NCBI RefSeq assembly: GCF_001436215.1
Contig: NZ_AYYP01000061.1
Coordinates: 33,317 to 97,316, forward strand
DNA length: 64,000 bases
Reading direction: 5' to 3'
Source of the DNA: Ligilactobacillus agilis DSM 20509
Lineage (GTDB): Bacteria > Bacillota > Bacilli > Lactobacillales > Lactobacillaceae
This document shows positions 446 to 6,306 of this stretch, one piece after another. The position numbers and the translations under genes were made by a program. How positions within the stretch are numbered: position 1 is the first letter of the stretch; every line of letters begins with the position of its first letter. Below the pieces are notes generated by a model. It saw only the letters and a list, made by a program, of their open reading frames with translations, made no database searches and was not told the origin of the DNA.

Positions 446-3905
<3,460 letters not shown>

Positions 3906-3961
3906 AATAGCAACCTCCAATAAAAAATTTTGAGTAATAAGTGCAGTAAAGAGTTTTTTGC

Positions 3962-4037
3962 AAAAGAAAAACCCAGAAACTCATTTAGAGTACAGCTACC
4001 CCTAAGGGTAAAAGCAATCTAATTAAGTTTCTGGGTT
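3962..4037 (-). terminator. Leader terminator of the beta-glucoside operon
   Basis: On the minus strand, between promoter and PTS gene, a 12-bp arm AACCCAGAAACT (4026-4037) pairs with its exact complement at 3970-3981 and is followed by a T-rich run (3962-3970). A small inner hairpin lies in the loop. The 5' arm overlaps the antiterminator site, so terminator and antiterminator folds exclude each other. Confidence 0.82.
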
Positions 4038-4064
4038 GATGCCTAGTCGAACTAGTAACACACC
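4033..4064 (-). promoter_or_regulatory. LicT/BglG-type ribonucleic antiterminator (RAT) site
   Basis: The minus-strand leader reads GGTGTGTTACTAG, then TTCGACTAGGCATCAACCC. This fits the RAT consensus bound by BglG/LicT proteins (GGATTGTTACT...AGGCAAAACC type), and it overlaps the first arm of the leader terminator. In known systems the PTS-controlled regulator dimer stabilises this hairpin when substrate is present. The regulator here must be encoded elsewhere. Confidence 0.82.
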
Positions 4065-4127: not shown

Positions 4128-4157
4128 GGAATAAATTTAAAAAAGCATAGTGGCTTG
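4128..4157. repeat. 30-bp direct repeat, left copy
   Basis: Thirty bases identical to 5323-5352. In the right copy the repeat is the last six codons and stop of the bile-salt-hydrolase-like gene plus nine downstream bases; this left copy is an orphan. The pair brackets 1,165 bp holding only the lipoprotein gene and its flanks. Confidence 0.93.
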
Positions 4158-4319
4158 TCCAAAAGTACTGAACTCTTCTAACCTAGTGAAAATTGAAAAT
4201 AATAAAGTATCTAAGATGATTATAAACTTTTTTTAAGCAATTAATAACTTGCAAATATATATATATATAATGTTAAGAGAAGTTTAAGATTATATAAAGT
4301 TAATTTAAAGGAGATTTTT

Positions 4320-5240
4320 ATGAAAAAGTATATTTTATTAGGTTTTAGTTTGTTAATAGTACTTTTTTCATTGACAGCTTGTAAAGATAAAGGTACTAAA
4401 ATAAATGGTCATACTGTTTATAAAACAGAAATTACATCAATTAAAACTGATAGTGATCAAGACTGGAAAATAACTGGAACTACAGACGCTCCAGACGGGA
4501 CAAAAATTTTAGCTTTTAGTAATGATAAAAGCGATTACTATAACTGGACACTTAGCTATACAGATTCTGATTGGGTTAAAGTAAAAGACGGTAAATTTAA
4601 GCTAGCAGTAGATCCTACTGAGGTTACAAATGATGATGCTTGGGATGAAGCAAATAAAGATATTAAGGTAACTATAGTAGCTGTATCAGAATATGATAAG
4701 GATGCTGATGACGAAGCACCTAAAGCTTTAGTAAAAGGTATTAGAAAGAATTTCACACCAGAGAAGTTAACTACTACAAAGAAGCAGGTTAAGTATAAAG
4801 AAAAACTTGAAGAAGAAGACAGTGATGAAGAAGATAGTGACTCTGATAGTTCTTCATCAGAAAGCAGAGATAATGAAGACGAAGATACAGATTCAGAAGA
4901 TACAGATTCATCAGTAAATACTTCGGATAAGTCGCAATACCAAAGTGTTACGTATGATCAGTTAGCTAGGACACCTGACGATTTTAAGAAAAAGCTAATT
5001 ACTATTTCAGGTACAGTTTTGCAATCAATTGTTGGTGAAGATGGGACAACTGAATTAATAGTTGACACGACTGGAAATGGTGATGTTATTGAGGTTTTAG
5101 AAATGAATAAAAGTTCAGTTCGTCATTTAGAGGGTGACAGTGTTACAATTTATGGTGTTTCTGGAGGCTTGACGTCTTATGAATCGTCTGGTAGCGGTAC
5201 AGTAACCGCGCCTTTGATAGGAGCTTATATTATTGAATAA
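4320..5240 (+). CDS. Putative lipoprotein with acidic linker and C-terminal beta domain
   Basis: I do not recognise the family. The 306-residue product has a lipoprotein signal (MKKYILLGFSLL..., lipobox LTAC, lipidated Cys21), so it should be anchored outside the membrane. Residues about 30-145 look like an Ig-like beta domain. Residues 163-205 are a low-complexity Asp/Glu/Ser linker. Residues about 206-306 (YDQLARTPDDFKKKLITISG...) resemble OB-fold domains of other Gram-positive lipoproteins. AAAGGAG at 4307-4313 supports the ATG. The gene is clearly more AT-rich than its neighbours, is alone in an islet between 30-bp repeats, and has only a weak AT-rich promoter region (TATAAT at 4266-4271). 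It is probably acquired; function unknown. Confidence 0.8.
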   Translation: MKKYILLGFSLLIVLFSLTACKDKGTKINGHTVYKTEITSIKTDSDQDWKITGTTDAPDGTKILAFSNDKSDYYNWTLSYTDSDWVKVKDGKFKLAVDPTEVTNDDAWDEANKDIKVTIVAVSEYDKDADDEAPKALVKGIRKNFTPEKLTTTKKQVKYKEKLEEEDSDEEDSDSDSSSSESRDNEDEDTDSEDTDSSVNTSDKSQYQSVTYDQLARTPDDFKKKLITISGTVLQSIVGEDGTTELIVDTTGNGDVIEVLEMNKSSVRHLEGDSVTIYGVSGGLTSYESSGSGTVTAPLIGAYIIE

Positions 5241-5262
5241 CGCTAGATAAATACTTTAATTT

Positions 5263-5309
5263 AAAAAGAAAACTATTCTTCGTATTTTTAGAAGAGTAGT
5301 TTTCTTTTT
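5263..5309. terminator. Bidirectional terminator after the lipoprotein gene
   Basis: Two 19-base arms (AAAAAGAAAACTATTCTTC and its near-exact complement, one wobble) flank a 9-base loop, with A and T runs on the outer ends. It lies between the plus-strand lipoprotein gene and the minus-strand hydrolase gene and can serve both. Confidence 0.85.
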
Positions 5310-5322
5310 ATACACTGATAAC

Positions 5323-5352
5323 GGAATAAATTTAAAAAAGCATAGTGGCTTG
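5323..5352. repeat. 30-bp direct repeat, right copy
   Basis: Identical to 4128-4157. This copy includes the last codons (QATMLF) and stop codon of the hydrolase gene at 5332-6306. A repeat copying the 3' end of a gene at both edges of an AT-rich insert is what integration at a gene end leaves behind. Confidence 0.93.
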
Positions 5353-6306
5353 CCAGGTAGATGGGAGCTGGAAAACCTTGACTGTTGGGCGGTTGAGTAA
5401 GTCTGAATTTAAACTCACCCCGAAAATTTGTGCTTGACCAACTGGCTTAAAGTAGTAGCTTAAACTTTGAGCTGAGGTAACAGTTTGATAAACCGTATAA
5501 GTAGGACGGTGGGCCTTACTTTTAGGCACGGAAACAGCGTCTAGTAGTTTAAAGGCGAGGTCCGCTGCCTCTAGCTCATTTGCTGGAACGTCAACCATTT
5601 CCTTGAGCCAAGCCGCCTTGACAAAGCGCTGGCTGGGAGTATAACCACCGCTAGGTTGCTTTTTACCGGCTTGTTTACCAGTCGTAACGTGAAAGGCACC
5701 TAAGGGACTGTTTCCAGCTAAAAATTCAGGCGTGAAGTCAAGGTAGCTGTCCATCTTAGCTAGTTGCTTTTCAAAACTAGGCATATTAGTTACGACTCCT
5801 AAAGGATTTTCAATTACCTTTAAAGGAGAGTGCGAAGGTTCAATTACAATGCTACGTCCGCTGGCGTCGCTGACAGCAAAGTGGAGTTCATCACCGCCGT
5901 GTTTTAATTGGCTTTTAAGGGCCATGAGTTGAATCGTTGGTAGTTGTTTTTCTAAATCGGCAATGGATTTAAAGTTACCAAGGGTATAAAGGACAAACTC
6001 AAAGGCGGCCAACTGGATGTTAGCATCGTTTTTTTCAGTGGTTAGGCTGGTGCCGTTAGCGAAGGTTAGTTTTTGAACGCTTAGGCCCCACTCATTGATG
6101 CCATCGCTTAAGTCGATTAGGTTTTGGTCCTGGAAACCAGTTCCTACCACGGCGTACTTGTTTTGGTAAGGACGGTGGTTATAAATAGACTGCCACTGAT
6201 AGTTGCGGGGCACAAAGATGGGACTAACATAAAGGTCGTACCAATCCATGGTTCGACCTAATAGATAACTTTTGTCGGTAGCGCTTACGAAAATGCTGGT
6301 GCACAT
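5332..6306 (-). CDS. bsh: Choloylglycine hydrolase family protein (bile salt hydrolase-like)
   Basis: N-terminal nucleophile hydrolase of the linear amide C-N family, which cleaves conjugated bile salts or penicillin V. It has 324 residues, the usual size. Cys2 (MCTSIF) becomes the catalytic residue after Met removal. R18 and D21 (LLGRTMDW), the oxyanion asparagine in VVTNMPSFE, and the arginine in SQRFVKAAW are present. No signal peptide, so cytoplasmic. It stands alone on the minus strand, divergent from nusG. Its 3' end is duplicated at 4128-4157. Bile salt hydrolase and penicillin acylase cannot be separated with confidence by eye. Confidence 0.88.
   Translation of the reverse strand: MCTSIFVSATDKSYLLGRTMDWYDLYVSPIFVPRNYQWQSIYNHRPYQNKYAVVGTGFQDQNLIDLSDGINEWGLSVQKLTFANGTSLTTEKNDANIQLAAFEFVLYTLGNFKSIADLEKQLPTIQLMALKSQLKHGGDELHFAVSDASGRSIVIEPSHSPLKVIENPLGVVTNMPSFEKQLAKMDSYLDFTPEFLAGNSPLGAFHVTTGKQAGKKQPSGGYTPSQRFVKAAWLKEMVDVPANELEAADLAFKLLDAVSVPKSKAHRPTYTVYQTVTSAQSLSYYFKPVGQAQIFGVSLNSDLLNRPTVKVFQLPSTWQATMLF

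Follow-up and report, generated by a model that had tools for sequence, protein, structure and literature searches.

A one-gene islet between perfect 30-bp repeats at a hydrolase gene end in Ligilactobacillus agilis, a probable remnant of a temperate phage

Introduction

How does a single lipoprotein gene come to lie between two perfect copies of a 30-bp sequence, one of which forms the end of a neighbouring hydrolase gene? The question is raised by a small islet in the genome of Ligilactobacillus agilis DSM 20509, found within a stretch of 64 kb that was analysed as a whole and is called here the window. An earlier note had proposed three origins for it: a decayed integrative element, a minimal cargo moved in trans, or a product of duplication.

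Comparable remnants have been described. An element that keeps both attL and attR after the loss of its integration and transfer genes is known as a CIME (PMC5704250), and the composite islands reported for Streptococcus salivarius at the 3' ends of protein genes include CIMEs of 1.2-13 kb, single CIMEs being beyond the reach of the method as that survey describes it (PMC7563491). The decay of prophages by deletion has been reviewed (PMC6379469), and prophage remnants of Oenococcus oeni are described as carrying putative exclusion genes (PMC8074189). Ltp, a lipoprotein encoded in the lysogeny module of the Streptococcus thermophilus phage TP-J34, is reported to block DNA injection (PMC3952083).

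A perfect repeat at the end of a hydrolase gene

The identity claimed for positions 4128-4157 and 5323-5352 (both read on the plus strand) is exact over 30 bases, the two copies being spaced by 1,195 bp from start to start. This direct repeat heads those listed for the window, where the sole other family measures 20 nt. When the search is confined to a 5-kb range, the longest exact direct repeat of the window is 30 bp, falling to 15 once the right copy is masked, and the longest found in each of 50 random sequences of equal length, drawn from a first-order Markov model, averages 14.4 and reaches 18 at most; the repeat is therefore not due to chance. A wide dispersal of the sequence, which would have spoken against the earlier note, is not seen either: with up to three mismatches allowed, there are exactly two copies in the genome itself (2.06 Mb in 72 contigs), and a 25-mer of the core, searched at the same tolerance in 397 genomes of the family, finds this genome and one three-mismatch match near tRNA genes in another (G109), which we take as chance.

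Seen from the left, the right copy holds 9 nt beyond a stop codon, the stop itself (5332-5334) and the last six codons (5335-5352) of a gene on the minus strand (5332-6306), as had been claimed. This target gene is intact and encodes a protein of 324 aa. Its description as bile-salt-hydrolase-like holds as far as the choloylglycine hydrolase (CBAH) family, to which it is assigned by Pfam (1.8e-57); the name bsh is unproven, since the protein reaches neither the NCBIfam cut-off for bile salt hydrolase nor that for penicillin V amidase. The database representative of this hydrolase ends in Y, whereas the protein studied here ends in F, as does an 87% identical relative; this change falls within the core and so speaks neither for nor against an element that brought its own core. 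The CBAH gene has no match in the plasmid DNA searched. Within a limited search, the literature found on prophage sites does not name bile salt hydrolase, and we do not claim the site as unreported.

A promoter-like site lies some 20 bp beyond the left, att-like copy and faces a beta-glucoside-type PTS IIABC gene (1932-3905, minus strand), for whose product a 90% identical protein is named for Lactobacillus agilis. In an empty site, the stop of the hydrolase gene would thus sit near this promoter. The leader of the PTS gene (3945-4050 of the window, minus strand) folds into a hairpin of very high stability (-37.5 kcal/mol, z -5.9) with a U-rich tract behind it, an arrangement compatible with a terminator that an antiterminator controls.

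One AT-rich gene between the repeats

The 1,165 bp between the copies agree with their earlier description as a single AT-rich lipoprotein gene with its terminator. Only one long open frame, at 4320-5240 on the plus strand, is read as a gene, with a frame of 66 aa inside it on the opposite strand. The gene is self-contained, being preceded by a sequence like a ribosome-binding site and followed by a terminator-like hairpin at 5262-5310 (plus strand; 20-bp stem, 9-nt loop, -23.7 kcal/mol, z -6.7), which is missing from the list of a consensus terminator scan because it is poor in GC. The non-coding parts beside the gene, 162 bp upstream (4158-4319, plus strand, AT-rich) and 82 bp downstream, match nothing beyond chance, the upstream region having been compared among the loci retrieved, and contain no recognisable phage DNA or integrase fragment. 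A search of Rfam returned a single match, far below the gathering score.

The islet has a GC content of 31% as against 42% for the window, and the third-position GC of the lipoprotein gene (0.195) is the lowest among the 42 open frames of at least 200 aa in the window. In overall GC the islet is unlike its surroundings and close to two phage-like modules of the same genome (0.32 and 0.34), which we recognised by eye and whose integrases were identified by Pfam.

No recombinase and no conjugation or mobilization gene occurs among the open frames of the islet. The three points on which the earlier note had built its case, namely a footprint like that of att sites, a target gene left intact and the absence of a recombinase, all hold. 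We also considered a module flanked by Xer/dif sites (pdif) and rejected it: the best match to a Firmicutes dif sequence is 14/28, and 500 shuffled sequences give a mean of 13.5 and a maximum of 17.

Could the second copy have arisen from repair, template switching or slippage during the capture of foreign DNA, with no site-specific recombinase involved? The absence of a recombinase from the islet and of any dif-like character from the repeat would agree with such an event. However, a chance repeat of this length is not expected from the random sequences above, and integrases are known to produce just such a pattern, a 30-bp duplication at the end of a gene that stays whole, here around phage-linked cargo (see below). 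We take an origin of this sort to be distinctly improbable.

The lipoprotein and its phage relatives

The protein of 306 aa starts with a signal-peptide-like segment and a lipobox-like LTAC motif, both recognised by eye. Its structure model (mean pLDDT 77, pTM 0.51, built from an alignment of 17 sequences) suggests an N-terminal domain that is mostly beta, a linker of low confidence rich in acidic residues and Ser, and a C-terminal domain that we read as OB-like. No structure in the PDB matches the model at an E value of 0.001 or better; the matches listed at the top, all weaker than this, are aminoacyl-tRNA synthetases and SSB, which we read as OB-folds. Among viral structure models, five pass the same threshold of 0.001, two of which are named as lipoproteins. 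The protein stays below the cut-off of every Pfam family, and the Ltp domain (host cell surface-exposed lipoprotein) is absent by the same search.

One link to phages is phrog_5319, to which ORF22 of Lactobacillus phage A2 belongs and which matches residues 166-303 (2.3e-15). By tblastn, relatives occur in 20 of 50,697 phage records, all except one named for Lactobacillus, Lacticaseibacillus or Oenococcus; none of the 20 covers 80% of the lipoprotein in one place, and most match only its C-terminal 29%. A search for distant DNA similarity in phages gave short matches only, the best with an E value of 0.2.

In A2, the gene order is cI-ORF22-xis/int. In Sha1, the homolog comes after the repressor and the integrase lies several genes beyond it, and a record from L. 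zeae with phage genes has the order S24 repressor, homolog, integrase. In the Oenococcus phage phi9805, one end carries attL and int, and the opposite end carries two genes matching the C-terminal and the N-terminal halves of the lipoprotein, which are separated from attR by 0.9 kb and two small genes.

A phage-like module of the L. agilis genome itself, beside a tRNA-Ser gene, encodes a membrane-anchored protein (L232:5587-6243) between repressor-like genes and an integrase. This protein matches phrog_806 and phrog_7237, the latter matched by ORF22 of A2 as well; it differs from the lipoprotein of the islet, so the same phage region houses varied surface proteins.

Homologs in bacterial genomes

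The lipoprotein has a match in 58 of the 397 family genomes, its own included. The family search returned 29 loci from other genomes with 1.5 kb of flanking DNA, and larger flanks were available for 20 of them. An integrase gene lies downstream on the same strand within 1.5 kb of the homolog at 11 of the 29 loci and within 1.8 kb at 13, the latter count excluding one integrase at 2.6 kb (L159) and drawing on the larger flanks where these exist; around the hydrolase genes of congeners, taken as a control, there is none at seven loci. These counts rest on seven seeds. For the set with larger flanks they give 10 of 20, L159 included, when frames from 50 aa are considered, and two seeds with frames of at least 90 aa give 9 of 20. 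Five out of five integrases tested at these loci pass the Pfam cut-off, and all three repressors tested have a Peptidase_S24 domain.

The other 16 loci, five of them viewed with flanks of 1.5 kb only, have no integrase within 1.8 kb, the closest homolog (39% in alignment A1) among them, so the family of the lipoprotein is not phage-only. This bears on a second reading, where the islet would be what is left of a conjugative or mobilizable element (ICE or IME), that is, a classical CIME instead of a phage remnant. The 16 loci are compatible with it, and CIMEs of this size, devoid of all recombination genes and located at the 3' ends of protein genes, are reported in streptococci (PMC7563491, PMC5704250). 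Against it, the domains of the cargo occur in temperate phages, beside phage repressors and integrases, and no gene for conjugation or mobilization is present in the islet. With a cargo linked to phages, unlike that of a CIME, an ICE or IME origin is not indicated, and we regard it as unlikely.

A homolog also occurs in the Weissella cibaria plasmid pNH9449-6 (L043; NZ_CP061508.1, 1-1526), a circle of 1,526 bp where it is the sole annotated gene and the only open frame of at least 60 aa. About 150 bp of this plasmid (1163-1316) are common to other Weissella plasmids and might serve as an origin that depends on a co-resident plasmid acting in trans.

Such a minimal replicon, on which the homolog travels as the sole frame of that size, brings us to a third reading: the islet as a minimal cassette moved in trans by the integrase of an unrelated phage, or in other words an exclusion gene on borrowed att sites. 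Two perfect repeats around a gene unit that is complete and has a hairpin of its own would suit a cassette of this type. However, none of the 11 loci that have larger flanks and no seed integrase shows flanking direct repeats of at least 20 bp (for L165, one of the 11, the flank on one side spans only 0.4 kb), which is evidence against a family of one-gene cassettes mobile in trans. Furthermore, the genome has no second copy of the repeat outside the islet or of the cassette, and a helper is not apparent: there are five integrase-domain matches in the genome, one of them beside tRNA-Ser, and no near copy of the core was found in the stretches around three of the five (best 20/30). We therefore hold a cassette moved in trans to be very improbable. 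A separate observation in the same genome is a short integrase-like frame of 186-191 aa (L234:9824-10384) with no obvious phage neighbours.

Some individual loci deserve a comment. A homolog at L162:7350-8560, next to an integrase and another lipoprotein-like gene, is flanked by a direct repeat of 42 bp that may be a duplicated terminator or gene; this is the sole long flanking repeat among the 20 loci with larger flanks. Pairs of a 16-bp repeat at L167 were taken as chance. L174 was set aside as a candidate for a lipoprotein at a phage end: its contig stops just after the lipoprotein gene, and the seed scores of its repressor and lipoprotein equal those at L154, which has an integrase after the lipoprotein gene; trimming thus probably accounts for the end of the contig. 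In the loci examined, the architecture of the islet is found at this site only.

Occupancy of the site and search for a parent

A CBAH protein match is present in 21 of the 26 genomes of the genus (its own included), the best of the others being 55% identical; closer hydrolases, 78-87% identical, are known from the protein tables (P0093 and P0094). None of the seven best other CBAH loci, retrieved as stretches of 8.6-10 kb, has the PTS gene or the nusG of the window adjoining. An empty site could not be read, because no other strain of the species and no relative sharing this gene order was found. Protein clusters offer an indirect view: the 90% cluster of the lipoprotein has 4 member sequences, and those of the flanking hydrolase and PTS protein have 249 and 164, which hints that most strains lack the islet or that its occupancy varies, bearing in mind that members are distinct sequences and that a recently arrived gene would vary little. 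The contigs column, with 11 for the lipoprotein representative and 1 for each of the flank representatives, does not repeat this contrast.

The att-like repeats are present, and no phage with the same core was found in the viral contigs and the 397 family genomes searched; nor did these hold an element that could use the core for accretion. In the viral contigs, a 21-mer of the core has no exact match, and a 16-mer has three, apparently by chance; none of the three is accompanied, in the DNA seen, by an integrase or repressor resembling the seeds, and one lies in a GC-rich contig. A degenerate pattern of the gene end found one match in the same contigs, unrelated.

Origin of the islet

Among the three origins first proposed, a decayed integrative element fits best, because the domains of the cargo belong to proteins of temperate phages, and both the cargo moved in trans and the product of duplication fit less well. 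A 30-bp duplication at a gene end, which leaves the gene whole and surrounds phage-linked cargo, is what integrases make. We conclude that the islet is probably what remains of a temperate phage, or of an element like one, after its reduction to the attachment repeats and one accessory gene.

An incoming element whose core matched the 30 bp at the gene end would have recombined there, leaving the core at both junctions and keeping the stop of the hydrolase. From an order like that of phi9805 (attL-int-...-lipoprotein-attR), one internal deletion would give the islet, and two would be needed from an order like that of A2 (cI-lipoprotein-int-att). The lipoprotein gene may have been kept since a lipoprotein on the surface of the lysogen would hinder infection by other phages; phage exclusion is suggested here by analogy of position. 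With the integrase lost, we predict no mobility for the islet, except where a phage or element that shares its site inserts next to it and takes it along.

By anatomy, the islet is a known kind of remnant at its small end: a single CIME or a "grounded" prophage remnant. With the CIMEs described in streptococci it shares att-like repeats (exact over 30 bp and in two genome copies, from which we infer a true att site), the 3' end of a protein gene and a cargo, here one lipoprotein gene, without genes for recombination or transfer (PMC5704250, PMC7563491); its size is at the low end of the 1.2-13 kb reported, and no integrase-bearing element adjoins it, whereas the CIMEs of that survey are described as found in tandem with one (PMC7563491). 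With grounded prophages such as those reported in O. oeni, it shares decay, att-like boundaries and a gene of a phage family, in line with their possible retention of putative phage-resistance genes (PMC8074189, PMC6379469). It differs in its length of about 1.2 kb with a single gene and perfect repeats, the O. oeni remnants being given as 5.2-19.5 kb (PMC8074189, PMC6379469), and in its site, a hydrolase gene end instead of the tRNA sites reported there (PMC8074189).

The cargo can be compared likewise. The C-terminal domain is homologous to ORF22 of A2, and the N-terminal half lies outside that match. As for Ltp of TP-J34 (PMC3952083), both proteins are lipoproteins and relatives of the islet's protein are located in lysogeny modules, but no Ltp domain was found in the latter. 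Moreover, unlike ORF22 and Ltp, it is found outside any recognisable phage.

Concluding remarks

The islet is real, largely explained, and a very small case of a known kind of remnant. A bolder view, to which we give very little credence, would place it among the smallest att-bounded passengers, as a self-contained one-gene exclusion cassette that borrows the integrase of incoming phages and thereby protects its host. As a probable phage remnant, the islet illustrates how far an integrated element may shrink, down to a pair of attachment repeats with one accessory gene. Standing alone, such islets escape surveys that rely on signature genes, as exemplified by the method described in PMC7563491, for which single CIMEs were out of reach. 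Should the lipoprotein exclude phages, remnants with a single gene would be a neglected component of the phage resistance of a strain, and their perfect repeats would expose them to being picked up by later phages using the same site.
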